64,000 nt of DNA, taken from contig NZ_CWKH01000001.1 of the NCBI RefSeq assembly GCF_001245615.1, positions 2,046,001 through 2,110,000 of the forward strand. The letters are read 5' to 3'. Under the pieces are notes generated by a model, which worked only from the letters and a program-made list of their open reading frames with translations, did not search any database and had not been told where the DNA came from. Positions 2,732 to 15,708 of the stretch are shown in pieces. Both the position numbers and the translations under genes were made by a program. Position 1 is the first letter of the stretch. The number at the start of each line of letters is the position of its first letter. This DNA comes from Mycolicibacterium neworleansense (lineage in GTDB: Bacteria; Actinomycetota; Actinomycetes; Mycobacteriales; Mycobacteriaceae).

Positions 2732-3442
2732 TTATTCGCCGGCGGGGTGCGTCGCGGGCCGGGTGTCGGTGATGACGTTGGTGGTCACCCCGGCCCTGGG
2801 CAGTGCGACGCCGATGAGGCAGTCGCGGGTGATGATCTCGGTCAGCTGATCCTCGGTCCAGCCGTCGGTGCCCTCGGGACGCATCGGCATCACCATGAAC
2901 CGATGCTTCTGGTTCGAATCCTGGACGCGCACGTCGACGGTGTCGGGCAGATACAGCCCGAATTCGGCGAGCACCTGCCGGGGCCAACGCACCAGCCGGC
3001 GCCGGTAGTTCGGGGTCCGGTACCACTCGGGCGAGTTGCCGAGAATCGGGCGTGGGTAACACGAGCAGAGCGCGCAGACGATCACATGGTGCACGGTCGG
3101 GGTGTCTTCGAGAATCTGAAATGCGGTGAAGTCGCTGGGGGTGCCGAATCCGGTGGGCTCCAGCCAGTCGACGCCGACCTCCTTGCTGGCCGTCATCGGC
3201 TCCGCGGCGGCCAGCTGTTTGAAGTCGGGGTCCAGCCAGGCCCGGGCGACCAGCCGGGCGGCGGGGGTCGGACCGATCTGCTCGGCGAACTCGGTGAAGA
3301 GTCGATGCTCCTCGGCGGTGAAAATCCCTTTCTCGATACACAGTTCGCGTAGGGCGATCTCCAGTACCTCGAAGTCGGTGATCTCGTCGACCATCGGTTT
3401 GACGGTGCGCTCGTGATCGTGATCATGGTCGTGCTCTGCCAT
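2732..3442 (-). CDS. Nitrile hydratase-type alpha (thiocyanate hydrolase gamma-like) subunit, variant metal site
   Basis: The 236-residue protein is the metal-bearing subunit of the nitrile hydratase/thiocyanate hydrolase family, which hydrates C-N triple bonds. The metal claw is Cys123-Ala-Leu-Cys126-Ser127-Cys128. In the family, cobalt enzymes have Thr and iron enzymes Ser at the second position, so Ala124 is unusual. The following Y-P-R replaces the usual P-W. The remaining hallmarks are present: L-G-N-S-P-E-W-Y-R, the P-R-x-V-L-A-E-F-G block and a C-terminal RDCLIGVALP segment. The N-terminus is histidine-rich (H-D-H-D-H-D-H), a likely metal-binding tail. It lies between the beta and activator genes. 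Substrate is unknown. Confidence 0.82.
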   Translation of the reverse strand: MAEHDHDHDHERTVKPMVDEITDFEVLEIALRELCIEKGIFTAEEHRLFTEFAEQIGPTPAARLVARAWLDPDFKQLAAAEPMTASKEVGVDWLEPTGFGTPSDFTAFQILEDTPTVHHVIVCALCSCYPRPILGNSPEWYRTPNYRRRLVRWPRQVLAEFGLYLPDTVDVRVQDSNQKHRFMVMPMRPEGTDGWTEDQLTEIITRDCLIGVALPRAGVTTNVITDTRPATHPAGE

Positions 3443-3481
3443 GGTGCGCCCTTCGTCTCAGAGCCTGATAGGCGGTAGAGG

Positions 3482-4321
3482 TCAGCCGGCTGCCTGCAGC
3501 CAGTGCTCGGGAATCTCGGTTCTCAACGTGTCGGTGGCCGTTCCGGTGTAGCCGTCCCACAACTGCGCCATGGTGAAGCTGACGACGTAGAACCATTCGG
3601 GTGTGGCATCGGTCCGGTCCCAGGTCTCGTCCTCTGCTGCCGGGCTTTCGTATGCCACCGCGGCGATCTCACCGCGCGCACCGCGGACGTATTCGGGGGT
3701 GCGGGTGTAGAACAGCACCGGCAGCTCACGCACCAGCACCGAATCCCCCACCTTGAACTTCGGCTCCCCGGCCCGGCCGGCATACACCTGTGGGTCGCCT
3801 TTGCCCTTGGCGTGCACGATGTGGCTGTTGCGCTTGACGTCCGAACCGTCGCCTTGGCACTTCGGCCTGGCCTCAAGGCGCTTACCGGCCAGTCCGCCGG
3901 CGTAGCGCTCCTGAACTTCGGCCATCCGTTCGGACAGTTCGGTCAAGCCGATGTGATGCTTCTCCACGAGGACCCGCGCGACCGACAGGAGCCACCGGCC
4001 GTAGTACGGGAAGCCCAGATAGACCGCGCGCCCGACGTCGACGTTACCCATCCGGCGCCGTTCCTCCGACAGCCAAATACCCCGCCAGGCAAGGACTTCG
4101 CAGATGACATACGTCATGTGCTCCCAGTACTCATAGTCCTTGTTCTCGTACTTCATCGGGGCGTCCGGCTCCCCGCCGACATCGTGCACCGGTTTCATGT
4201 AGGCGGTGAAGCGGTCATGGTCGAGCAGGTCCGGCGTCGGCGCGTCGGGCAGTTCCGTATATGCCGACTTGAGGCGAGCGACCAATGCCAACTGGGCGGC
4301 GCGGTCAGCGGCTGTGCTCAT
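3482..4321 (-). CDS. Nitrile hydratase-type beta subunit
   Basis: The 279-residue protein contains both halves of a nitrile hydratase beta subunit. The N-terminal half has the V-H-D-V-G-G motif near residue 45 and the helical Y-Y-G-R-W-L block. The C-terminal SH3-like barrel has F-K-V-G-D-S-V, T-R-T-P-E-Y-V-R-G and a late L-W-D-G segment. Thiocyanate hydrolase splits these halves into two genes, so the fused form favours a nitrile hydratase layout. It is the promoter-proximal gene of the operon, with alpha 39 nt downstream. A strong GGGGAGGG ribosome-binding site precedes the ATG. Confidence 0.8.
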   Translation of the reverse strand: MSTAADRAAQLALVARLKSAYTELPDAPTPDLLDHDRFTAYMKPVHDVGGEPDAPMKYENKDYEYWEHMTYVICEVLAWRGIWLSEERRRMGNVDVGRAVYLGFPYYGRWLLSVARVLVEKHHIGLTELSERMAEVQERYAGGLAGKRLEARPKCQGDGSDVKRNSHIVHAKGKGDPQVYAGRAGEPKFKVGDSVLVRELPVLFYTRTPEYVRGARGEIAAVAYESPAAEDETWDRTDATPEWFYVVSFTMAQLWDGYTGTATDTLRTEIPEHWLQAAG

Positions 4322-4472: not shown

Positions 4473-5615
4473 TTATGCGGACCGGGCCCGGCGCCGGCGC
4501 ACGATGCGCCAGCATCCGTCGACGCTCTCCACCAGTCCGGCGAGTTCCAGCATCGTCAGCGGCCCCAGGACCTGATGCGGCGGCAGCGCAGCGAGCATCG
4601 AGATCTCGTCCACGGTGTGGGCACCGCGCGCGGGCAACGCGTCGTACACCTGTTTCTCGGCCGGCGCGAGCTCGTCGAGCAGCGCAGTCGGATGAGGCTG
4701 CTCGGGCGCCAGTTCACCTATCTGGCCGACGAGTTCGACGACCTGCTCGGCCCGGCCGACCAGATGCGCGCCGTTCTGAAGGAGTGCGTGACAGCCGGCC
4801 GAGGCCGCCGAGGTCACCGGACCCGGCACCGCGCACACCGAGCGCCCCATCGCCTTGGCCCATGACGCGGTGCTGGCCGCCCCGCTGCGCAACCCGGCCT
4901 CCACCACCACCGTTGCCCCGGAGAGGGCGGCCACCAACCGGTTACGGGTGAGGAAACGTAGCCGGCCCGGCGGCGTTCCCGGCGGGTACTCGCTGACCAG
5001 CACGCAGTCCTGGCGAATCCGGTGGAACAGAGTGCTGTGACCCGCGGGGTACGGATTGTCGATGCCGCCGGCCACGATCGCGACCGTCACGCCCTCGCAT
5101 GCCAGCGCGGCGCGATGCGCCGCCCCGTCGATACCGTAGGCACCGCCGGAAACCACCGCCACCTCGCGTTCGACCAATCCGGCGGCCAGTTCGGCAGCCA
5201 CGTGCTCGCCGTAGGCAGTGGCCGCACGGGTGCCCACGATCGCCGCGGCACGGTCGGTCGCTTCGTCAAGGCGTACGGGCCCGGCGGCCCACAACACCAG
5301 CGGAGGATGACCATTCGGGCGGTTGAGTTCCTTGTCGCCGCGCAGCGCCCGAAATCGCAGCAGCGGCCATTCCTCGTCATCGGGGGTGATCAGCCGCCCG
5401 CCCATCCTGTCCAGGACATCCAGGTCATCTGCCGCACAATCGAATTCCCGACGCGCCTCGACCCGGACCAGCAACTCGTCCTCGACCTGACCGGCCTTGA
5501 CCCGTCCGGCCGCCTCGACCGGACCCACCTGCGTGACCAACGCGGTCAACTGCGGGCACGGCGGCTCGGCCACCCGCGACAGATACGCCCAGGCCCGGCG
5601 CAACTCGTCAGTCAT
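4473..5615 (-). CDS. dprA: DNA-processing protein DprA
   Basis: The 380-residue protein has the DprA/Smf Rossmann core: A-I-V-G-T-R-A near residue 127, V-V-S-G-G-A-Y-G-I-D-G-A-A-H about 30 residues later, and the R-F-L-T-R-N-R-L block. The C-terminal winged-helix (DprA DML1-like) domain is present. DprA loads RecA onto incoming single-stranded DNA during transformation, although its role in mycobacteria is not settled. It overlaps the upstream comM-like gene by 4 nt, indicating translational coupling, and corresponds to Rv2896c. Confidence 0.93.
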   Translation of the reverse strand: MTDELRRAWAYLSRVAEPPCPQLTALVTQVGPVEAAGRVKAGQVEDELLVRVEARREFDCAADDLDVLDRMGGRLITPDDEEWPLLRFRALRGDKELNRPNGHPPLVLWAAGPVRLDEATDRAAAIVGTRAATAYGEHVAAELAAGLVEREVAVVSGGAYGIDGAAHRAALACEGVTVAIVAGGIDNPYPAGHSTLFHRIRQDCVLVSEYPPGTPPGRLRFLTRNRLVAALSGATVVVEAGLRSGAASTASWAKAMGRSVCAVPGPVTSAASAGCHALLQNGAHLVGRAEQVVELVGQIGELAPEQPHPTALLDELAPAEKQVYDALPARGAHTVDEISMLAALPPHQVLGPLTMLELAGLVESVDGCWRIVRRRRARSA

Positions 5616-7123
5616 GGCATATCCCCGGCCTGCCGGAAGCTCAACGCCGCGGCGACGTCCTCTTGGGCGGGCATGGTCCGCCCGGCCAGATCAGCCAAAG
5701 TCCAGGCGACCTTCAAACACCGGTCGGCACCGCGCATGCTGATCACCCCACGGTCGAGCACGGATCGCAACGGCTCCATCGCTGCTTTCGGCAGCCGGAA
5801 TTCACGCCGCAGCAGCGGGCCGCTGACCTCGGCGTTGGTCCCGATCCCATACGGTTTCCACCGTTCCCGGGCGGCGAGGCGCGCGGCGGCGACGCGCTCA
5901 CGCACCACAGCGCTGGACTCGCCCGACTGCGGCATGAACGCCCCCGCGGTGACCGGGTAGAGCTCTACCCGCAGGTCGACGCGGTCCACCAGTGGCCCCG
6001 ACAGCTTGCTGCGATACCGCAGTTTGGCTTGGGCCGAACACACGCAGTCGGCCGAATTGGGCGGTGCGCACGGGCACGGGTTGGCCGCCAGCACAAGTTG
6101 GAAACGGGCCGGGTAGGTCGCCACCCCGTCACGGCGCGCCAACCGAATCTCACCGTCCTCCAGAGGAGTTCGCAACGCTTCCAGGGCACTTGAGCCCAAC
6201 TCGGCGAACTCGTCGAGAAACAGCACGCCGCGGTGGGCTCGGCTTACCGCTCCCGGCCGGGCGAATCCGCTGCCGCCGCCGACCAGGGCCGCAACGCTGG
6301 AGGTGTGGTGCGGTGCCACGAACGGCGGCCGGGTGATCAGCGGTGTGGCCCCCGCCAACAACCCCGCCACGGAATGAACGGCCGTCACCTCAAGCGACTC
6401 GACGGGTGACAGCGGCGGCAACAGCCCGGGAAGCCGTTGCGCCAACATGGTTTTCCCGATCCCGGGCGGACCGGTGAGCATCAGGTGATGGGCACCGGCC
6501 GCCGCCACCTCGACGGCGTAGCGTGCCTTGGCCTGCCCGACCACGTCGGCGAGGTCCGCGATCGGCTCCGGTGCGCAGCCCGGCGCCGCGACCCTGGCCT
6601 GCAGGATTCCCTTTCCGTCGAGCCAGGCCTGTAGCTGCCGAAGCGTCCGTACCCCGCACACCTCGATACCGTCGACCAGGCTGGCCTCGGCCAAATTGTC
6701 TTCGGGTACCACCACCCTGGGCCAGCCCTCCTGCTTGGCGGCCAGGACCGCAGGCAGCACACCGTGGACCGGACGGACGCGGCCGTCGAGCGCAAGTTCG
6801 CCGAGCAGCACCGACTTCTCCAGCCGCGCCCAGGCCGTCTTGGTGTGCGCCGAGAGCACGGCAGCTGCCAAGGCCAAGTCGTAGACCGAACCGACCTTGC
6901 GCAAGGTGGCCGGTGACAACGCCAATGTCAGGCGCGACATCGGCCACGTGTTGCCGCAGTTGGTGATCGCGGCCCGCACCCGGTCCCGAGACTCCTGCAA
7001 CGCGGTGTCGGGCAGCCCCACCAAGTTCACGCTGGGCAGCCCCGAGGTGATGTCCGCCTCGATCTCCACGATCACGCCGTCGATCCCACGCACGGCAACC
7101 GAATAGGCTCTGCCCAAACCCAT
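5612..7123 (-). CDS. YifB/ComM-type magnesium chelatase-like AAA+ ATPase
   Basis: The 503-residue protein has the N-terminal Lon-protease-like S5 fold domain of the family (G-L-P-S-V-N-L-V-G-L-P-D). A magnesium-chelatase-type AAA+ core follows with Walker A G-P-P-G-I-G-K-T near residue 217, Walker B L-F-L-D-E-F-A-E, and a CxCxxP-type cysteine cluster (N-P-C-P-C...C-V-C). ComM is a hexameric branch-migration helicase that aids integration during natural transformation in other bacteria. It sits between yraN (1-nt gap) and dprA (4-nt overlap), the same order as Rv2898c-Rv2896c. Confidence 0.92.
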   Translation of the reverse strand: MGLGRAYSVAVRGIDGVIVEIEADITSGLPSVNLVGLPDTALQESRDRVRAAITNCGNTWPMSRLTLALSPATLRKVGSVYDLALAAAVLSAHTKTAWARLEKSVLLGELALDGRVRPVHGVLPAVLAAKQEGWPRVVVPEDNLAEASLVDGIEVCGVRTLRQLQAWLDGKGILQARVAAPGCAPEPIADLADVVGQAKARYAVEVAAAGAHHLMLTGPPGIGKTMLAQRLPGLLPPLSPVESLEVTAVHSVAGLLAGATPLITRPPFVAPHHTSSVAALVGGGSGFARPGAVSRAHRGVLFLDEFAELGSSALEALRTPLEDGEIRLARRDGVATYPARFQLVLAANPCPCAPPNSADCVCSAQAKLRYRSKLSGPLVDRVDLRVELYPVTAGAFMPQSGESSAVVRERVAAARLAARERWKPYGIGTNAEVSGPLLRREFRLPKAAMEPLRSVLDRGVISMRGADRCLKVAWTLADLAGRTMPAQEDVAAALSFRQAGDMP

Positions 7124-7124
7124 T

Positions 7125-7493
7125 TCAACCCACCCCCTTGAGATGTGCCAGCTCCGGTTCGCGGCGACGTCCGATGCGCACCCCGATCACGTCGATGCGC
7201 AGCGCGGCGTACCGGGCCTCCTGCTCGGCCAGCCACAGCGCCGCCAGCCGACGGATGCGGCGCACCTTCTGGACCGTGACCGCTTCGGCGAGCCCACCGA
7301 AACCGTCCCCGGTGCGGGTCTTCACCTCGACGAACACCACTGTGTTCGTGGCGACCTCCTCGGCGATCACATCCAGTTCGCCGTAACGACAGCGCCAGTT
7401 GCGCGTCAGCATGTGCAATCCCTGGGCCGCCAGATGCTCGACGGCCAGCTGTTCACCCAGTGCGCCGATCTCGGCCCGTGTCAGAGAACTCAT
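7125..7493 (-). CDS. YraN family (UPF0102) endonuclease-like protein
   Basis: The 122-residue protein has the conserved UPF0102 core: G-E-x-L-A-V-E-H-L at the start, R-N-W-R-C-R-Y-G-E-L-D-V-I and V-F-V-E-V-K-T-R. The E...D...E-x-K pattern is that of the PD-(D/E)xK nuclease fold, but its function is not established. I chose the internal ATG (complement 7491-7493), which gives the family's usual length; the frame extends upstream to 7565. It is the first gene of the yraN-comM-dprA operon and matches Rv2898c. Confidence 0.85.
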   Translation of the reverse strand: MSSLTRAEIGALGEQLAVEHLAAQGLHMLTRNWRCRYGELDVIAEEVATNTVVFVEVKTRTGDGFGGLAEAVTVQKVRRIRRLAALWLAEQEARYAALRIDVIGVRIGRRREPELAHLKGVG

Positions 7494-7611
7494 GTCCACA
7501 CCGTGCGGACACGGTCCGACAGCCTCGGCTCCGTCAGGCTCGGTTATCCCCAGCGTCGCTTTCATCCACAGGCAGTGGATCGTTGCAGCTCTCTCGGCGA
7601 GCCCACCCCGG

Positions 7612-7619: not shown

Positions 7620-7638
7620 TTAGGTGATGCTCAGCTAA
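7620..7638. promoter_or_regulatory. IdeR/DtxR-type iron box
   Basis: TTAGGTGATGCTCAGCTAA matches the IdeR consensus TWAGGTWAGSCTWACCTWA at 15 of 19 positions. Its 8-bp arms are complementary with a single mismatch. It ends 18 nt before the start of the ferric-binding protein gene, so iron-replete IdeR would block this promoter. Confidence 0.75.
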
Positions 7639-7656
7639 CGCCGAAAGGGTCACTCG

Positions 7657-8673
7657 ATGCGCACACGTTGGAGCCGCCGGGTTGCTGTAGTTCTGTCTGC
7701 CGTCGCTGTCGCGACCGGCATGGTCGCCTGCTCCGGTTCGGAGTCTGACGAGCTGCTGATCTACAACGCCCAGCACGAGTCGCTCACCAAGGAGTGGATC
7801 GACGCGTTCACCAAGGAGACCGGCATCAAGGTCACCTACCGGCAGGGCGGTGACACCGAGCTGGGCAATCAGCTGGTGGCCGAGGGCGCCGCCTCCCCGG
7901 CCGACGTGTTCCTCACCGAGAACTCCCCGGCGATGGCGGCAGTCGAGCGCGCCGGACTGTTCGCCGACGTCCAACAGCAGACCCTCGATCAGGTCCCGGC
8001 CCAGTTCCGGCCGTCATCGGGCAAGTGGACCGGCGTGGCGGCACGCTCGACGGTATTCGTCTACAACAAGGCCAAGTTGCCCGCCGAGCAGCTGCCCCGC
8101 TCGATCATGGATCTCCAGCAGCCGCAATGGAAGGGGCGTTGGGGTGCCCCGCCGGCCAAGGCGGATTTCCAGGCGATCGTGGCGGCCATGCTGGAGCTGA
8201 CCGGTGAGCAGGCCACCGCCCAGTGGCTGGCCGGTTTGAAGGCCAATGCCGTTGTGCTCCAAGACAACATCGCCACTTTGCGCGCCGTCAACGACGGCCA
8301 GGTGGACGGTGGAATCATCTACCACTACTACTGGTTCCGCGATCAGTCCAAGACCAAGGAGATCAGCGGCAACACCGCCTTGCATTACTTCAAGAACGAA
8401 GATCCCGGCGCGTTCGTCAGCATTTCCGGCGGCGGCGTCCTGAAATCGAGCAAGAAGCAGGACCAGGCCCAGCAGTTCGTCCGGTTCATCACCGGTAAGG
8501 CCGGCCAGGAGGTGCTGCAGAAAGGCACGTCGTTCGAATACCCGGTCGCCAGCGGCATCGCCGCCAACCCGGCCCTGCCGCCGTTGGACACGCTACAGGC
8601 GCCCGCGGTCAACCCCTCCAATCTCGATGCCGCCAAGGTCACCGATCTGATGACGAAAGCCGGCTTGCTGTAA
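7657..8673 (+). CDS. Ferric iron ABC transporter substrate-binding lipoprotein
   Basis: The 338-residue protein belongs to the FbpA/AfuA/FutA ferric-binding family. It begins with a lipoprotein signal whose lipobox is V-A-C near residue 24. The mature part starts L-L-I-Y-N-A-Q-H-E, typical of the family. Tandem tyrosines in I-I-Y-H-Y-Y-W-F, near residue 227, match the Fe(III)-coordinating tyrosine pair. It is probably anchored outside the membrane and feeds iron to the permease encoded next. It opens a four-gene operon behind an IdeR-like box, with a GAAAGGG ribosome-binding site. Confidence 0.88.
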   Translation: MRTRWSRRVAVVLSAVAVATGMVACSGSESDELLIYNAQHESLTKEWIDAFTKETGIKVTYRQGGDTELGNQLVAEGAASPADVFLTENSPAMAAVERAGLFADVQQQTLDQVPAQFRPSSGKWTGVAARSTVFVYNKAKLPAEQLPRSIMDLQQPQWKGRWGAPPAKADFQAIVAAMLELTGEQATAQWLAGLKANAVVLQDNIATLRAVNDGQVDGGIIYHYYWFRDQSKTKEISGNTALHYFKNEDPGAFVSISGGGVLKSSKKQDQAQQFVRFITGKAGQEVLQKGTSFEYPVASGIAANPALPPLDTLQAPAVNPSNLDAAKVTDLMTKAGLL

Positions 8674-10245
8674 TTGATCGCCACAGAAGCACCGTCGGCT
8701 CAGCCGGTCACGCAGCGCTCCGCAGGCGCCAGACCGGGGCCGGTGCTGAGCACGGCCGTGGTGCTGCTCCTGGCCGCCACTTTCATCCCGCTGGCCTACG
8801 TCGGCTGGTCGGTGATCACCACCGGTCCGGCCCGGGTGCTCGAGCTCGTGGTGCGGCCCCGTGTCGGAGAGCTGCTGCTCAACACCGTGGGCCTGGTGGT
8901 GGTCACGGTGCCGGTGTGCGTGATGCTCGGAGTCGGTGCGGCCTGGCTGGTTGAGCGCACCGATCTGCCGGGCCGCACATGGTGGCGACCGGTGTTCGTC
9001 GCACCGCTGGCCGTGCCCGCGTTCGTCAACAGCTACGCCTGGGTCAGTGTCGTGCCCTCGTTGCACGGGATGTCGGCAGGGGTGCTGATCGCGACGCTGT
9101 CCTACTTCCCGTTCGTCTACGTGCCCGCCGCGGCGACGCTGCGCCGGATCGATCCGGCACTGGAGGAATCTGCGCGTGCGCTGGGTTCCGGATCCGCCGG
9201 GGTGTTCTTTCGGGTGGTGCTGCCGCAGCTGCGTCTGGCGATCCTGGGCGGCGCCCTGCTGATCGGGGTCCACCTGCTGGCCGAGTACGGCGCGTTCGCG
9301 ATGATCCGCTTCTCGACCTTCACCACCGCGATCTTCGAACAGTTCCAAGCCACGTTCGACGGTGCCGCCGGCGCGACGCTGGCCGCGGTACTCGTGTTGC
9401 TGTGCCTGCTGTTGCTGGTCACCGAGGCCGCGGCCCGCGGCAATGCCCGGTTTGCCCGGGTGGGTGCCGGCGCGCAACGCTCCGCCGCGCCGATGCGGTT
9501 GGGGCGCGGCAGGTTACCGGCCACCGCTGGGCTGCTGAGTCTGGCCGTGTTGGCATTGGGGGTACCGCTGTGGACGCTGACGCGGTGGCTCTGGATCGGC
9601 GGCACGCAGGTGTGGGAGCCGACGCAGATGGGCACGGCACTGGCCCAGACCGCCGCCCTGGCCGCCGTGGCCGCCGTCCTGACCACCGTGCTGGCCTTCC
9701 CGTTCGCCTGGGTCGCCGTCCGCTACAGCGGTCTGCTGGCCCGCTCGATCGAGGGCGCCAACTTCATCACGAGCTCGATGCCCGGCATCGTCACCGCTCT
9801 GGCCCTGGTCACGGTTGTGATCCACTACGCGCCACCGCTCTACCAGTCCGCGGCACTGGTGATTTGTGCCTATGTACTGCTGTTCCTGCCGCGGGCTCTG
9901 GTCAGCCTGCGCTCGGGCCTGGCACAGGTGCCGCCGTCGGTGGAAGAGGCCTCGCGCTCACTGGGCGCCTCACCCACGCGGACGTTCGTGCGTGTCACCC
10001 TGCGGTTGACCGCTCCGGCCGCGGCCGCCGGTGCTTCACTGGTATTCGTAGCCGTGGCAACGGAATTGACCGCGACGCTGTTGCTGGCACCAACCGGCAC
10101 TCGAACGCTGGCCATGCGGTTCTGGTCGCTGTCCAGCGAACTGGATTACGCGGCAGCGGCACCCTACGCGCTGATGCTGATCGCCATGTCCGTACCCGTG
10201 ACCCTGATGCTGTTGCGCCAGTCGACGAAGGTGGCTGCCCTGTGA
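8674..10245 (+). CDS. Ferric iron ABC transporter permease (FbpB type)
   Basis: The 523-residue protein consists of two fused binding-protein-dependent permease halves with about 12 membrane segments. Each half carries an EAA-type loop: E-E-S-A-R-A-L-G near residue 165 and E-E-A-S-R-S-L-G near residue 425. The fused form is typical of FbpB/SfuB/HitB iron permeases. The only sensible start is a TTG immediately after the TAA of the substrate-binding gene, indicating tight coupling. The gene overlaps the ATPase gene at GTGA. Confidence 0.88.
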   Translation: MIATEAPSAQPVTQRSAGARPGPVLSTAVVLLLAATFIPLAYVGWSVITTGPARVLELVVRPRVGELLLNTVGLVVVTVPVCVMLGVGAAWLVERTDLPGRTWWRPVFVAPLAVPAFVNSYAWVSVVPSLHGMSAGVLIATLSYFPFVYVPAAATLRRIDPALEESARALGSGSAGVFFRVVLPQLRLAILGGALLIGVHLLAEYGAFAMIRFSTFTTAIFEQFQATFDGAAGATLAAVLVLLCLLLLVTEAAARGNARFARVGAGAQRSAAPMRLGRGRLPATAGLLSLAVLALGVPLWTLTRWLWIGGTQVWEPTQMGTALAQTAALAAVAAVLTTVLAFPFAWVAVRYSGLLARSIEGANFITSSMPGIVTALALVTVVIHYAPPLYQSAALVICAYVLLFLPRALVSLRSGLAQVPPSVEEASRSLGASPTRTFVRVTLRLTAPAAAAGASLVFVAVATELTATLLLAPTGTRTLAMRFWSLSSELDYAAAAPYALMLIAMSVPVTLMLLRQSTKVAAL

Positions 10246-11300
10246 CCGACGATGTCCTGCAGGTACGTGGACTTCGCAAGGCCTTCAACGGCGCTGCGGT
10301 GCTCGACGGCATCGACCTGTCCCTGACGCCGGGCACCATCACCGCGGTGGTCGGGTCTTCCGGCTGCGGCAAGACCACACTGCTGCGGGTCATCGCCGGC
10401 TTCGAATCCCCCGACGCCGGCACCGTGACCATCGGCGGACGTGAGATGGCCGGTCCCACAAACACTGTCGCCCCGCATCGTCGCGATATCGGTTACGTGG
10501 CGCAGGACGGTGCGCTGTTCCCGCACCTGACGGTGGCCCAAAACGTCGCCTACGGTTTGCCTGAGCGCGGGGCCGCCGCACGAGCCCGGGTCGGCGAACT
10601 CCTGGACACCGTGTCCCTGGATTCCTCGTTCGCCGATCGCCGGCCGCACCAGCTCTCCGGCGGTCAGCAGCAGCGGGTGGCACTGGCCCGGGCGCTGGCC
10701 CGGCGGCCGGTGGTGATGTTGCTCGACGAGCCGTTCAGCGCCCTGGACACCGGTCTGCGCGCCGCCACCCGCAAGTCGGTGGCCCAGGCGCTGTCCGATA
10801 CCGGGGTGACCACACTGATCGTGACGCACGACCAGGAGGAGGCACTGTCGATCTCCGATCAGGTCGCGGTGATGCGCGAAGGTCGGTTCACCCAGGTAGG
10901 AACGCCCGAGCACGTGTACCGCCAACCCGCCGACCGGTTCACCGCCGAGTTCCTCGGGGATTGCATCACGGTGGCAGGCACCGTCACCTCGGGGTGGGCC
11001 CTGTGCGCACTGGGCCGGATACCGGTGCAGGCCGGCGCCCCCGACGGGCCCTGCACGCTGGTGCTGAGGCCCGAACAGCTTGTCGCCACGGCGATCTCGG
11101 ACTGCGCGGGCGATGTCGACGCGGCCGCCCCCGTGGGGACCGTGGTCGCCACCGAGTTCCTCGGACACGATGTGCTGCTCACCATCGAGCCGCCCGCTGC
11201 CGGTGAGCCCATCGTCGTGCGGCAGCACAGCCTGAATCCGCCCGCCCGCGACACCAAGGTCCGGATCGACGTGCGGGGCACGGGGACGGCATTGCCGTGA
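10242..11300 (+). CDS. Ferric iron ABC transporter ATP-binding protein (FbpC type)
   Basis: The 352-residue ATPase has Walker A G-S-S-G-C-G-K-T-T, signature L-S-G-G-Q-Q-Q-R, Walker B L-L-L-D-E-P-F-S-A-L-D and the His-loop T-H-D-Q-E-E-A. A C-terminal TOBE-like extension from about residue 240 is typical of FbpC and CUT1 ATPases. It starts at a GTG overlapping the permease stop. Its own stop overlaps the GTG of the following ligase-acyltransferase gene, so all four genes are translationally linked. Confidence 0.9.
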   Translation: MTDDVLQVRGLRKAFNGAAVLDGIDLSLTPGTITAVVGSSGCGKTTLLRVIAGFESPDAGTVTIGGREMAGPTNTVAPHRRDIGYVAQDGALFPHLTVAQNVAYGLPERGAAARARVGELLDTVSLDSSFADRRPHQLSGGQQQRVALARALARRPVVMLLDEPFSALDTGLRAATRKSVAQALSDTGVTTLIVTHDQEEALSISDQVAVMREGRFTQVGTPEHVYRQPADRFTAEFLGDCITVAGTVTSGWALCALGRIPVQAGAPDGPCTLVLRPEQLVATAISDCAGDVDAAAPVGTVVATEFLGHDVLLTIEPPAAGEPIVVRQHSLNPPARDTKVRIDVRGTGTALP

Positions 11301-13846
11301 ACCGCGTCGTCGAGGAGTTACTGGCCCACGGCGACCGGATCGCGGTGGTGACCGAAGCCCAACAGGTCAGCTACGCGGCCCTCGCCGATCTCGTGTCGCA
11401 GGCCGCAGCGGCGCTGGGGCCGGAACGCCGGCTCGTGCTTCTCAAGGCACGCAACGACCTTGACACCCTGGTGCACTATCTGGGCGCGCTCGCCGGTGGG
11501 CACGTAAGCCTGCCGTTACCCGCGCGCGGTGATCACCGCACGATCCTGCAGACGTACCGCCCCGATACCGTGATCGACGCCGAGGGCATCCACCATCGAA
11601 ACACCCACAGCACCCACCGCCTGCACGACGACCTCGCACTCCTGATGTCGACCTCGGGCAGCACCGGGTCACCGAAGTTGGTCCGCCTCTCCCACACCAA
11701 CCTGGCCAGCAACGCCGCCGCCATCGCCGAATATCTCGATATCGGTGAAACCGACCGGGCTGCAACCACTTTGCCGATCTCCTACTGCTACGGGCTTTCG
11801 GTGGTCAACAGCCACCTGCTGCGCGGTGCGGGCCTGATCCTCACGGATCGCTCGGTGGTGGAAGACGAGTTCTGGGACCTGTTCACCCGGCACCGGGCCA
11901 CCACCTTCGCCGGGGTGCCCCACACGTTCGACCTGCTGGACCACATCGGCTTCGACACCCTGCACCTGCCCCACCTGCGCTACATCACCCAGGCGGGTGG
12001 GCGGATGGCGCCCGATCAGGTGCGCCGCTTCGCCGCACTGGGGCAACGCCGTGGCTGGCAGCTGTTCGTGATGTACGGGGCCACCGAAGCCACCGCCAGA
12101 ATGGCCTATCTGCCACCGGAATTGGCCCTGGCACATCCCGAAGCCATCGGACATCCGATCCCAGGCGGCAGCCTGTCCATCCGCTCTGGTGACGGCTGGG
12201 CCGACGGCACGGGTGAACTGGTCTACCGCGGCGCCAATGTGATGCTGGGATATGCGCAGCGGCCGGCGGATCTGGCCCTCGGGGCCACGATCGAGGAACT
12301 GCGCACCGGCGACATCGCACGACGCACGCCCGAAGGCCTGTACGAGATCATCGGCCGCAGCGGACGATTCGTGAAGCTGTTCGGACTGCGCATCGACCTG
12401 GACCGGGTGCAACGCGGCCTTGCCGAACGCGGAGTGACGGCGCTGTGCACGGACGATGGCGACGCTCTCGCCGTCGCCGCCGTGGACACGGGTAAGGCGA
12501 GCACCGACGAGGTTCGGCAGTTGACCGCCGCCCTGGCCGACATTCCGGCCGGGTCGGTGCGCGCCACGGTGGTTCCGGAATTGCCCAGGCTGATCTCTGG
12601 CAAACCCGACTACGCAGCGGTACGCACGCTCGCCGCCGAACCACCGGCCACCGATGTCGCGGATCTGAAGGCCTTGTTCGCCGAGGTGCTGCATATACCG
12701 GTCCAATGCATCGACCCCGACGACAGCTTCATCGACCTGGGTGGAAATTCGCTGTCATACGTGGCGATGTCGGTTCGGCTGGAACGCGCGCTGGGACAGC
12801 TGCCGAAAGATTGGCACCGGATGGCGCTGCGCGATCTGGAGCGTAGCTGTGCGGCCCGGCCGAGCCGCTGGGCAACCGTGGAAACCAGCGTCGCGCTGCG
12901 CGCCGCGGCCATCGTGCTCATCGTCGGCTCGCACGCCGAACTGTTCGCGCTGTGGGGTGGCGCGCACATCCTGCTCGGGGTGGCCGGTTACAACTTCGGC
13001 CGGTTCTGCCTGACACCGGTACCGCGGTCGACCCGGTTACGGCACCTGCGCAACACGATCGCCTGGATCGCGGCGCCTGCCATCGTCTGGGTGGCCGTCG
13101 CACTGGTCCTCACCGACGACTATCACGCGTCGAATCTTCTACTGGCCAACAAATTTCTCGGGCCGCCCGACAGCATGACCGCCGGGCGGCTGTGGTTCGT
13201 CGAGGTGCTGGTCTGGATCCTGGTGGCGCTGACCGCGGTGTGCGCATTGCCGGGCGCCGACCGATTGGAGCGCCGGCGCCCATTCGGTTTCGCCGCGGTG
13301 TTCCTGGCCCTGGGGCTGGTGTTGCGTTATGACCTACCGGGTTTCGGCCTGGGCCGGGAGGCCTGGTTCACGGTGCTGGCGTTCTGGTTCTTCGCGGCCG
13401 GATGGGCGGCGGCCAAGGCAACGACCACATGGCAGCGGGTACTCGTCACGGTGGTGCTGGCGGTCGGCGTGCACGGCTACTTCGCCAACAGCGGTCGGGA
13501 AACGCTGGTGCTGGCAGGGTTCGCGCTGTTGATCTGGTTGCCCTCGGTGCGCTGTCCGGCCGGGGTGGCGATCGGGTGCGGGGTACTCGCCGAGGCCTCA
13601 CTCTTCATCTACCTCACGCATTACCAGGTCTATCCGCTGTTCGGTGACCACCGAGTGCTCGGTGTGCTGGCCGCACTGCTCGTCGGAATCGTGCTCACCT
13701 ATGTGGTCGACGTGGTCCGAAAGCGACTGGCAGGCACGAACGCCACGGCGCTGCGCGGCCGGCATATGGCCCGCTACGCTGCGCGTGCGCTATCCCTGAG
13801 CGACACTCCTCGGTCTCAGAGTGGGCAATCAGGCATTACGCCTTGA
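11297..13846 (+). CDS. Fusion of AMP-forming ligase, phosphopantetheine carrier and membrane acyltransferase
   Basis: The 849-residue protein has three parts. Residues 1 to about 450 are an adenylating enzyme: S-T-S-G-S-T-G-S-P-K, Y-G-A-T-E-A, R-T-G-D-I-A and the catalytic Lys436 in I-S-G-K-P-D-Y. Residues about 455-525 are a carrier domain with Ser485 in G-G-N-S-L-S as the phosphopantetheine site. From about residue 530 there are nine or ten hydrophobic segments resembling acyltransferase family 3, with His546 in G-S-H-A-E-L and a late Y-L-T-H-Y motif. In principle one polypeptide could activate an acyl or aminoacyl group, carry it and transfer it across the membrane. It is coupled (GTGA) to an IdeR-controlled iron transporter. 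Substrate and acceptor are unknown. Confidence 0.78.
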   Translation: MNRVVEELLAHGDRIAVVTEAQQVSYAALADLVSQAAAALGPERRLVLLKARNDLDTLVHYLGALAGGHVSLPLPARGDHRTILQTYRPDTVIDAEGIHHRNTHSTHRLHDDLALLMSTSGSTGSPKLVRLSHTNLASNAAAIAEYLDIGETDRAATTLPISYCYGLSVVNSHLLRGAGLILTDRSVVEDEFWDLFTRHRATTFAGVPHTFDLLDHIGFDTLHLPHLRYITQAGGRMAPDQVRRFAALGQRRGWQLFVMYGATEATARMAYLPPELALAHPEAIGHPIPGGSLSIRSGDGWADGTGELVYRGANVMLGYAQRPADLALGATIEELRTGDIARRTPEGLYEIIGRSGRFVKLFGLRIDLDRVQRGLAERGVTALCTDDGDALAVAAVDTGKASTDEVRQLTAALADIPAGSVRATVVPELPRLISGKPDYAAVRTLAAEPPATDVADLKALFAEVLHIPVQCIDPDDSFIDLGGNSLSYVAMSVRLERALGQLPKDWHRMALRDLERSCAARPSRWATVETSVALRAAAIVLIVGSHAELFALWGGAHILLGVAGYNFGRFCLTPVPRSTRLRHLRNTIAWIAAPAIVWVAVALVLTDDYHASNLLLANKFLGPPDSMTAGRLWFVEVLVWILVALTAVCALPGADRLERRRPFGFAAVFLALGLVLRYDLPGFGLGREAWFTVLAFWFFAAGWAAAKATTTWQRVLVTVVLAVGVHGYFANSGRETLVLAGFALLIWLPSVRCPAGVAIGCGVLAEASLFIYLTHYQVYPLFGDHRVLGVLAALLVGIVLTYVVDVVRKRLAGTNATALRGRHMARYAARALSLSDTPRSQSGQSGITP

Positions 13847-13964: not shown

Positions 13965-14462
13965 TTACCGCAGCGGGTTGGGAACTGGAGACTGCGGCAC
14001 GCCGCTCAGCTTGCGAAGAGTGGCGATGCAGTCATGAAGCTCTTCGAGGGCGACACCGGCCACCTTCGCGCGGAAGAACTCATGCAGGCGGCGCAATGAC
14101 TCCTGCTGCACGTCCGCGCCGCGCGGCGTCACCTCGATTCGGGTGACTCGCCGGTCGGTTTTCGACGGTGTCCGGCGCAGCAGCCCCGCGGTGATGAGCT
14201 TGTCGATGTCTGAGGTGATCGTGCTGGGCAAAACATTGAGGTATTCGTGCAGCAAACCGGGGCGGTCGAGCCCGGCATGGACCAGGAACACGATGCCCAA
14301 GCCGCGTTCAGAGATGGCGTACTCGTGAGCCACGGGGATGGTGAGTGCTGAAAGCATGCGTTGAACGTCCATGACGGCGCCGAGGAAGTCGACGATGTCG
14401 GCATCGTCAGCAGCGCCAATGGTGTCGGTCACGCTGCCATACGATACCCGCCCGCCCCCCAC
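13965..14462 (-). CDS. MarR family transcriptional regulator
   Basis: The 165-residue protein has a MarR winged-helix: L-P-S-T-I-T-S-D-I-D-K-L recognition helix region, a G-L-L-R-R wing lead-in and the T-D-R-R-V-T-R-I-E-V-T-P-R-G beta-wing. The start could be the ATG at 14462 or a GTG ten codons in. It is divergent from the AveC-like operon across a 115-nt gap containing a palindrome that is almost repeated upstream of the mce operon. It is therefore the likely regulator of both. The effector is unknown. The 118-nt convergent gap to the left (13847-13964) shows nothing recognisable. Confidence 0.88.
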   Translation of the reverse strand: MGGGRVSYGSVTDTIGAADDADIVDFLGAVMDVQRMLSALTIPVAHEYAISERGLGIVFLVHAGLDRPGLLHEYLNVLPSTITSDIDKLITAGLLRRTPSKTDRRVTRIEVTPRGADVQQESLRRLHEFFRAKVAGVALEELHDCIATLRKLSGVPQSPVPNPLR

Positions 14463-14479
14463 CAGAGCCTCGCGTCAAA

Positions 14480-14500
14480 ATAGTTCATAATCTGAACAAT
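14480..14500. promoter_or_regulatory. Operator-like palindrome between the MarR and AveC-like genes
   Basis: The core GTTCATAATCTGAAC (14483-14497) has perfect 5-bp arms, extending to 8 bp with one mismatch. It shares 11 of 13 positions of its TTCA...CTGAA core with the palindrome at 19941-19957. It is the expected kind of site for the adjacent MarR protein. Confidence 0.6.
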
Positions 14501-14577
14501 GTGCGCTATCGTCCTCCACTGAGGCGAGATTCGTCTCACGCGTCAACAACGGTCGCGGTGAAACAGCACGGAGTGTC

Positions 14578-15708
14578 ATGGAGCCACCGATTCGTGTCGA
14601 TAAACCCACGGGCGCCGACGACGGCACGCGCCCGTCCGTGAAGGCGCGTTGGAAGGGCTGGATCGGCTGGACCGTCGCCGTCGCGCTGGCGATCGTCGTT
14701 CTGGCAAGTGCGGAGAAACACGGCCCGGTATCACCGGAGAACGCGAATCCAGATGGGTTAGGTAAGCCACCGCCGGTGGAACCGCTGTTGTACCCCTTTG
14801 ATTGGGTGTTCTGGGGACAGATATTGGGCGCGCTTCTCGCCGTCGGCATCCTCATCGCATCGGTGGTGGCTTGGCGACGTCAGCCCGGTCATCCGGTCGT
14901 ACTCATGGTCATCGCCACCAGCACCCTGTTGTGGTGGGACCCGATCAACAACTGGGCCATCGGGTTGGTCTACAACCCGAAGATGTGGCACTTTCCCCGA
15001 GATTGGCCGTGGTTCAACATCTCTCCGATCATCGAACCGCTGACGTCCTTCATCTACTCGCCCTACGTGCTGCTCCCCTACTTCCTGGCCATGCCGATCC
15101 TGCGCGCCCTTCAGCGCCGCAGCGACCCGAAGGGCTTCGTATGGCGTCACCCGCTGGTCTCGATCGCCGTGCTGACGTTCCTCATCGGCGTCGTCTGGGA
15201 TGCCGCCCAAGAGATCTTGCTGACGCGGGCTCAGTTCCTGACCTATACCCATGTCATCGAATTCGGCTCGATCGATGTGGGCAAGTACAGTCAGTTTCCG
15301 CTGTTGATGGCCAGCGTGCTCATTACGATCATCATGATCCCGGCATCGGTGCTGCTCTATCGCGACGACACCGGAAAGACTCAGGCGGACAAGATCGCTC
15401 AGCGACTGCACCTGCACCGCCGCCACCCCAAACTCGCCACGTTCCTGGTGATGACACTCGTCCTCAATGTCGCGATGATCAGTTTCAGTTCGACCTTCTG
15501 GCTCGTGCGCGCGACGGGCGCCGCGTCTACTGTGGCCTGCCCGTGGCCATACCCACAAGCCAAGACCTGGGATCCGCGCGGTTACTACGAAGCCCAGGGT
15601 GCCCCGGGACCGTTCACCGCCGGTGAGGCGAGCACCTGGCAGATCGGTCAGCCCGACGGCAGGCCAACCGACATCACAGTGGAGTCCGACCGCTGCAATT
15701 CCCAGTGA
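14578..15708 (+). CDS. AveC-like (spirocyclase family) integral membrane protein
   Basis: The 376-residue protein has about seven hydrophobic segments: residues 23-42, 79-97, 108-120, 160-178, 200-216, 240-262 and 296-316. W-W-D-P-I-N-N-W and an F-I-Y-S-P-Y-V-L-L-P-Y block are typical of mycobacterial proteins named AveC-family. AveC itself acts in spiroketal formation in avermectin synthesis; the activity of mycobacterial members is unknown. Here it leads an operon with the VWA and MoxR genes, overlapping the first at GTGA. The ATG at 14578 has a CACGGAG ribosome-binding site. The name reflects resemblance, not a demonstrated reaction. Confidence 0.65.
   Translation: MEPPIRVDKPTGADDGTRPSVKARWKGWIGWTVAVALAIVVLASAEKHGPVSPENANPDGLGKPPPVEPLLYPFDWVFWGQILGALLAVGILIASVVAWRRQPGHPVVLMVIATSTLLWWDPINNWAIGLVYNPKMWHFPRDWPWFNISPIIEPLTSFIYSPYVLLPYFLAMPILRALQRRSDPKGFVWRHPLVSIAVLTFLIGVVWDAAQEILLTRAQFLTYTHVIEFGSIDVGKYSQFPLLMASVLITIIMIPASVLLYRDDTGKTQADKIAQRLHLHRRHPKLATFLVMTLVLNVAMISFSSTFWLVRATGAASTVACPWPYPQAKTWDPRGYYEAQGAPGPFTAGEASTWQIGQPDGRPTDITVESDRCNSQ

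Follow-up and report, generated by a model that had tools for sequence, protein, structure and literature searches.

An FbpABC-type importer and a ligase-carrier-acyltransferase fusion in Mycolicibacterium neworleansense look like parts of one undescribed iron-capture route

For bacteria that lack a TonB outer-membrane route, we are aware of no settled account of how FbpA receives Fe3+, nor do we know of a described FbpABC operon that includes an acyl-transfer enzyme. A locus of Mycolicibacterium neworleansense raises the question whether such an enzyme can belong to an importer of this kind. In the 64,000-nucleotide stretch of DNA analysed here (the window), the plus strand carries fbpA (7657-8673; ferric-binding protein, 338 aa, HYY motif at 223-225), fbpB (8674-10245; double-length permease, 523 aa, TTG start uncertain), fbpC (10242-11300; ATPase with a TOBE_2 domain, 352 aa) and a gene whose 849-aa product fuses an AMP-forming ligase, a carrier and an acyltransferase-3 (AT3) domain (11297-13846). 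All four were assigned with Pfam, fbpA also by solved-structure matches and the fusion by alignment. The initial annotation described the importer genes as overlapping, which is true of fbpB/fbpC and fbpC/fusion (4 bases each), while the fbpB start directly abuts the fbpA stop (overlap 0).

A search of PDB structures with FbpA returned the solved ferric-binding proteins 8k7n (1.8e-128), YfuA (7.9e-127) and SfuA (2.6e-124); the matches to 8k7n, 1xvx and 1xvy are all 2.6e-124 or better and span residues 9-338 or 31-338. By sequence the window's FbpA is a ferric-binding protein of the SfuA/YfuA type, and it retains as H40, E88, Y224 and Y225 the iron ligands H9, E57, Y195 and Y196 of Haemophilus influenzae FbpA (cited in PMC3534580). 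In the available text of PMC6684656, the M. smegmatis importer supports siderophore-independent growth at low iron, a strain lacking both siderophores grows less well at low iron once msmeg_3635 is deleted, and no acyl-transfer enzyme is named in the operon. Sodium citrate upregulates MSMEG_3635/3636, according to the accessible part of PMC10597346. Apart from this importer itself, no description of an importer combined with a ligase-carrier-AT3 system was found in the full-text literature, in agreement with the initial annotation, which knew of none.

The IdeR-like palindrome noted earlier is borne out: TTAGGTGATGCTCAGCTAA at 7620-7638 (no strand assigned) precedes fbpABC and agrees at 15 of 19 positions with what we take to be the IdeR consensus. 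A scan of the 64-kb window for the full consensus with up to 3 mismatches gave no match, so the box counts as having 4. A pattern derived from the box occurs once in the 64 kb and in none of 100 shuffled sequences, a circular result since the box is its own source. We regard 7620-7638 as a putative iron box of the IdeR/DmdR type.

All three proposed domains of the fusion protein pass the Pfam gathering scores: AMP-binding (1.4e-43), PP-binding (4.4e-10) and Acyl_transf_3 (8.9e-9; PF01757 with 35.3 bits against a gathering score of 31). Pfam and alignment place the adenylate-forming domain with K436 at residues 1-452 (11297-12652), the carrier domain with the phosphopantetheine Ser485 in LGGNS at 12653-12799 and the AT3 domain with R535-X10-H546 and R577-XX-R580 at 12854-13732, all on the plus strand. 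No MBOAT family is listed by Pfam for the fusion; the C-terminus is an acyltransferase of the AT3 type, as judged only by Pfam and the RX10H and RXXR motifs. Several hydrophobic peaks lie within residues 533-800, and a profile of the AT3 part found no PDB match at E ≤ 1.

Relatives were compared over the best 80 of at least 580 confirmed loci, which are not a random sample. K436, S485, R535, H557, R580, W633, E636 and H775 are invariant in these 80, H546 is kept in 79 and R577 in 76; Lys436, Ser485 and His546 had been correctly positioned in the initial annotation. H546 is replaced by Arg in a metagenome copy (L050) and also in L025, apparently the same contig. The ligase pocket residues C164, Y165, S168, T210, T231, A233, M259, A267 and R268 (within 11297-12652, plus strand) are kept in 79-80 of the best 80, with domain identity down to 55%. 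Since hardly any variation touches the catalytic residues, the AT3 motifs or the ligase pocket, a single acid probably serves throughout. When the genome was searched for the DltA family, every match fell below the cut-off, and eight of these loci were reused as alignment partners. In the alignment to eight NRPS adenylation domains of the same genome, Cys164 occupies the column of the amino-acid Asp, presumably NRPS position 235; among the best 80 of at least 580 loci the residue is Cys in 79 and Ser in one. The activated substrate is probably a non-amino carboxylic acid. Arg268 was rejected as proof of a dicarboxylate substrate, being present also in two stand-alone ligases (L028, L029), and an apparent FbpC-ligase joined protein (P0252) was discarded as evidence, its junction resembling an out-of-frame stretch.

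The link between fusion and importer, guessed from a single locus, proved strong in two genome samples that are fairer than the 80 best loci. Among 118 genomes of the genus, fbpA was found in 43/43 with the fusion and 9/75 without it, and among 246 Actinomycetes genomes in 40/40 and 28/206, respectively; these counts are based on fbpA alone, not fbpBC, and their Fisher values ignore relatedness among genomes. In the class sample, the 17 genera with the fusion all fall inside the 34 with fbpA, of 103 in total. Nine genomes of the genus and 28 of the class have fbpA alone, so the importer can do without the fusion. AT3 matches in genomes were judged by eye and lie in open frames of at least 800 codons, with one exception of 509 at a contig end (G049); of the 45 in the genus, one (G085, 8.6e-49) represents a distant second copy. 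Homologues were taken as the best 120 of 7531, 369 and 6279 matches, the scored candidates numbering 8000 or 7999 in each search.

In both samples and among the relatives, the fusion is found mostly near iron transporters rather than away from them: fbpA lies within 8 kb in 33/40 class and 31/43 genus genomes, and all three fbp genes were matched within 10 kb at 54 of the best 80 of at least 580 loci (including L066, scored as linked although its best fbpC match lies beyond the fusion), with two loci cut at a contig end and 24 without any. Among these 80, 29 are divergent, 21 have fbp upstream and co-directional, and 4 have fbp downstream. A Streptomyces homologue is represented by S. xanthophaeus (L070), and in Rhodococcus opacus B4 the cassette sits on plasmid pROB01. 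The genomes of the unlinked fusions carry fbpA elsewhere in 23 of 24 cases, several near contig ends, some of which could therefore adjoin the fusion in reality. Transporter and antisense frames aside, no neighbouring family found with our home-made gene caller recurs widely outside mycobacteria at the best 80 loci; only family 26 was noted, at 5 loci.

Iron boxes of at least 13/19 accompany this pairing. Among the linked loci of the best 80 of at least 580 they precede 19/21 fbpA-first, 29/29 divergent and 4/4 fusion-first units, compared with 31/1979 random 300-nt windows, which may contain true boxes, while divergent regions were scanned up to 476 nt. One region cut wrongly (L054, 5279 nt) was counted as a miss, another (L080) measured 195 nt, and L040 and L089 were excluded. 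Among the unlinked loci of these 80, boxes precede 23/24 fbpA genes and 12/24 fusions; the 12 fusions without a box directly upstream include all five Nocardia loci. The linked FbpA of the same 80 loci all have the paired Tyr (54/54), His is kept in only 21 and Glu in 17, and the commonest replacements are Asn for His (25) and Gln for Glu (33).

Relatives with the same domain order (A-T-AT3) occur in Sinorhizobium, Rhizobium, Leisingera, Paracoccus, Roseateles and Shinella, several with a carrier or AT3 score below the Pfam cut-off. They are 34-36% identical to the fusion overall and 24-25% in AT3, retaining R535, H546, W633, E636 and H775, whereas H557, N566 and RXXR are lost and C164, T210 and Q232 altered. 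An Fe3+ importer adjoins the relative in 2 of 11 proteobacterial strains (12 loci, two Paracoccus records being counted once), Paracoccus and Pararhizobium; Pararhizobium A13 was chosen for a binding protein seen close by, the others without such knowledge. The other nine have no adjoining Fe3+ importer. The partner binding proteins are yet another class than the actinobacterial FbpA. In Paracoccus, annotated phospholipid synthesis genes come after the importer.

We consider it slightly on the probable side that at low iron the fusion, by transmembrane acyl transfer, produces an iron ligand or surface on the extracytoplasmic side to supply FbpABC. The four genes would form one iron-repressed uptake unit, in which FbpABC, by family assignment and as tested by others for a mycobacterial relative, would carry Fe3+ across the inner membrane. 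With ATP, the ligase would activate a specific small carboxylic acid, probably not an amino acid, and load it onto the fusion's own phosphopantetheine arm; domains and residues suggest that the arm offers the thioester to the AT3 pore, from which the acyl group would pass to an acceptor outside the membrane. The product may be an iron ligand, either set free or kept at the envelope, that would yield its Fe3+ to FbpA, a role we infer from the near-obligate partnership of fusion and fbpA and the shared iron boxes. Against this reading stand the 24 of the best 80 of at least 580 loci away from fbp, half of them without a 13/19 box, the nine of 11 proteobacterial strains, the genomes with fbpA alone, and the iron-ligand His and Glu that often differ in linked FbpA of these 80. 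The missing solved-structure match of the AT3 profile also counts against it, as does acetyl-CoA as the AT3 donor in the available text of PMC9833829.

Among the alternatives, it is unlikely, but deserves most weight, that the fusion alters an envelope lipid or glycan at low iron, changing charge or permeability much as Dlt does with teichoic acid and helping FbpA indirectly without any iron ligand. In the accessible text of a review (PMC9558356), acylation of surface sugars is the role most often connected with AT3 enzymes, the cassette has neither an exporter nor any other biosynthetic gene that is widely shared, and the Paracoccus phospholipid genes fit; a general envelope change, however, would be expected with other iron systems too and does not by itself explain fbpA in every sampled fusion genome. 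Acylation by the fusion of FbpA, or of a different Fbp subunit, would account for a fusion found only alongside fbpA while fbpA can stand alone. This is improbable, given that two FbpA types (~72-93% and ~34-41% identical to the window's) pair with the fusion in the genus, few positions are constant over 18 aligned FbpA rows and the proteobacterial partners are of another class. Still less probable is an AT3-like domain that exports or hydrolyses, an activated precursor thereby giving rise to a simple acid chelator that the protein secretes: AT3 domains with non-transferase partners exist, e.g. the racemase VanT (in the available parts of PMC9558356 and PMC12423673), but free-acid export would need neither ATP activation nor a carrier, and the OafB model links the retained RX10H and RXXR to binding of the acyl donor, as far as the text of PMC9833829 extends. 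A passenger that shares only iron regulation and serves an unrelated low-iron adaptation, as boxes of at least 14/19 before 10/24 solitary fusions (best 80 of at least 580 loci) and the mostly importer-free proteobacterial relatives might suggest, is very improbable: no fusion genome in either sample, across 17 genera, lacked fbpA, the arrangement labels (unlinked and proteobacterial loci included) require 17 changes on the tree, and the pairing recurs in two proteobacterial strains.

The importer and fusion pair thus looks, in many actinobacteria, like parts of one undescribed iron-capture route. More tentatively, and with rather more doubt than confidence, this may be a widespread route in Actinomycetota and some Alphaproteobacteria, in which one protein passes a carrier-bound acyl group through an AT3 pore to make a ligand dedicated to FbpABC. 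If so, 'siderophore-independent' FbpABC uptake would gain its missing partner, and the fusion would be, to our knowledge, the first AT3 enzyme whose acyl donor is a thioester on a tethered carrier. With an enzyme as near-obligate partner, the iron source of the importer becomes testable, and an AT3 acyltransferase with built-in activating and carrier domains offers a handle on the donors that AT3 pores accept.

Among known systems, SfuABC, YfuABC, FbpABC and M. smegmatis MSMEG_3633/3635/3636 share with the importer a binding protein, double permease and ATPase, the window's FbpA being close to the SfuA, YfuA and HitA structures. NRPS-type siderophore synthetases share adenylation and carrier domains and iron control, whereas the fusion is one module that ends in AT3 and, with only AMP-binding, PP-binding and Acyl_transf_3 above the Pfam cut-off, has no condensation domain. 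The AT3/TmAT proteins OafB, OatA and VanT have in common with it PF01757, RX10H and RXXR, and a hydrophobic C-terminal domain. AT3 enzymes are discussed with acetyl-CoA rather than a carrier as donor in the available text of PMC9833829, and the known AT3 fusions named in the accessible literature carry SGNH, racemase or NRF domains; in the window protein ligase and carrier instead precede AT3, so that a tethered thioester, and not CoA, is the probable acyl donor. The likeness to DltA-DltC-DltB, which D-alanylates teichoic acid, was proposed in the initial annotation; it stands for the order of ATP activation, carrier loading and transfer across the membrane, and fails for the transferase, which is AT3 where Dlt has the MBOAT DltB, and for the amino-acid Asp, which the ligase lacks. 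As the review judges MBOAT DltB unrelated to AT3 in its available text (PMC9558356) and the Asp is missing, the Dlt logic is an analogy only. The fusion, a single polypeptide tied to an iron box and an importer, would work like Dlt but by its domains is not Dlt.

On the plus strand of the window, which belongs to a genome of 6.29 Mb, a 19-base IdeR/DmdR-type palindrome (iron box, 7620-7638) is followed by the ferric ABC importer genes fbpA, fbpB and fbpC and by an 849-codon gene (11297-13846). The product of the latter carries AMP-binding, PP-binding and Acyl_transf_3 domains in this order (Pfam), and the fbpA, fbpB and fbpC products fall into Pfam families of importer parts. Overlaps of 4 bases were found at the fbpB/fbpC and fbpC/fusion joins, and the crystallised proteins SfuA, YfuA and HitA are near full-length relatives of the window's FbpA. 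The initial annotation had described this locus correctly. Among the matches listed, the closest named homologues of the fusion (84-86% identity) are from M. boenickei, M. farcinogenes, M. syngnathidarum, M. porcinum and M. peregrinum. At 13965-15708, a minus-strand frame for a MarR-type regulator is divergent from one for an AveC-like protein (PF17198, 2.2e-43), and two adjacent minus-strand frames at 2732-4321 are presumably nitrile hydratase subunit-like.

The central proposal of that annotation, a link of the fusion to iron uptake, was borne out well beyond the locus. In 118 genomes of the genus, searched separately with the acyltransferase-3 (AT3) part and with FbpA, the fusion was found in 43 and fbpA in 52; fbpA was present in 43/43 fusion genomes versus 9/75 others (Fisher 1e-23, relatedness ignored). 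The class sample (n = 246) yielded the fusion in 40 and fbpA in 68 genomes, with fbpA in all 40 fusion genomes versus 28 of the 206 others (Fisher 5e-28, relatedness ignored). Counted by genus, the 17 fusion genera all lie inside the 34 fbpA genera, out of a total of 103 (2e-10, relatedness again ignored). fbpA was located at most 8 kb from the fusion in 31 of the 43 fusion genomes of the genus and in 33 of the 40 in the class sample. Among the best 80 of 580 fusion loci in GTDB genomes, 54 have matches to fbpA, fbpB and fbpC within 10 kb, a contig end interrupts 2 more and 24 have no fbp hits within this distance; 23 of the 24 genomes with an unlinked fusion carry at least one FbpA elsewhere, and the remaining one is a 2.8 Mb metagenome bin. 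Some observations speak against a role in iron capture: many genomes have fbpA without the fusion, a third of the best 80 loci are unlinked, and the FbpA proteins of linked loci differ at two of the four classical iron ligands.

In mycobacteria fbpABC precedes the fusion, the two are divergent in Streptomyces, Actinomadura and several Micromonosporaceae, and the fusion comes first in Rhodococcus and a few others. When seven labels for gene arrangement, among them unlinked and proteobacterial, are mapped onto a quick tree of 83 proteins, they require 17 changes; the arrangement changes without importer and fusion separating. Outside mycobacteria, the families found in at least five loci are the fusion, FbpA, permease, ATPase, their antisense frames and one Nocardia neighbour. 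Cassettes are plasmid-borne in M. crocinum and R. opacus, and two fbpABC-fusion cassettes occur together in a 4.0 Mb genome from the genus (L022, L023). Iron boxes were scored as the best match to the 19-base consensus per upstream or intergenic region, a match of 13/19 being reached by 31 of 1979 random 300-base windows. At least 13/19 positions matched in 19/21 fbpA-first loci, 4/4 fusion-first loci, 23/24 unlinked fbpA genes and 12/24 unlinked fusions, and at least 14/19 in 29/29 divergent regions. No box of at least 13/19 was found directly upstream of the five Nocardia fusions.

A yraN-like gene often adjoins the cassette or the lone fusion, as does a gene that we take to be comM-like (window 4473-7565; L030, L042, L048, L106), and in several species a presumably CoA-transferase-like gene flanks the opposite side; the position looks as if it were a single slot of gain or loss. 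At five mycobacterial loci lacking fbpABC (L042, L047, L048, L052, L106), frames of 280-440 codons from a common family occupy the place just upstream of the fusion. In a Corynebacteriales metagenome bin (L107 1433-10280, contig of L027) the fusion lies between what we assume to be dehydrogenase-like and PKS-like frames and is preceded by a 14/19 iron box.

Within the enzyme, K436 of the ligase and S485 of the carrier are invariant in the best 80 loci. The ten pocket positions of the ligase, which we presume to follow GrsA numbering, are each identical in 79 or 80 of these loci, and identity of the domain overall drops to 55%. In an alignment to eight NRPS A domains encoded in the window's genome, Cys164 stands where an Asp holds the amino group of the amino acid. 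We infer that a single acid, not an alpha-amino acid, would be used throughout the family. Arg268 hints at a second acidic group on this acid, but stand-alone ligase relatives have it too. The AT3 motifs RX10H and RXXR are kept (R535 80/80, H546 79/80, R577 76/80, R580 80/80); in the OafB model they line or flank the acetyl-CoA pore (PMC9833829). Arg replaces the near-invariant His546 in L025 (5274-7784) and L050. Judged from the list, the best 120 of 369 AT3 matches appear to be fragments of the fusion family. On an 8.3 Mb contig of Nocardia huaxiensis, a 463-residue carrier-AT3 protein without most of the ligase (P0228) is a split or broken relative.

Alpha- and Betaproteobacteria have a sister clade of proteins with this ligase, carrier and AT3 combination (L142-L147, L151, L153-L158), where no Fe3+ importer adjoins the relative in 9 of 11 strains examined. 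In Paracoccus SMMA_5 the fusion relative is followed by convergent genes for an iron permease, an Fe(3+) SBP and an ATPase, and then by annotated phospholipid synthesis genes; in Pararhizobium A13 the three importer genes are divergent from the relative. Since this SBP is of a different class from FbpA (best solved relative 1y9u), the pairing of fusion and importer recurs with a different importer. The Paracoccus importer runs into annotated lysophospholipid acyltransferase, phosphatidate cytidylyltransferase and CDP-alcohol phosphatidyltransferase genes (L158 1369-7348; L151 1011-5582), possibly a hint at a lipid acceptor. Annotated zinc transporter genes lie about 5 kb from the Leisingera copy.

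A full-text literature search found no description of the fusion or its tie to FbpABC. Deletion of msmeg_3635 in M. smegmatis harms low-iron growth when both siderophores are gone, and the passages of this account dealing with the importer name no ligase-carrier-AT3 enzyme (PMC6684656). SfuABC relatives are reported in Arthrobacter and rhodococci in the relevant section of PMC3534580, and the passages seen of PMC12161575, on the S. coelicolor DmdR1 regulon, show no fusion-type locus. There is a substantial chance that fusion and FbpABC constitute a distinct route of iron capture. Likening the fusion to a single-chain Dlt describes its possible mode of action fairly, but Dlt is wrong as a family name. 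AT3 proteins are named as fusions with SGNH, racemase and NRF in the sections seen of PMC9558356 and PMC12423673, none of them with ligase and carrier, the two domains that precede AT3 here.
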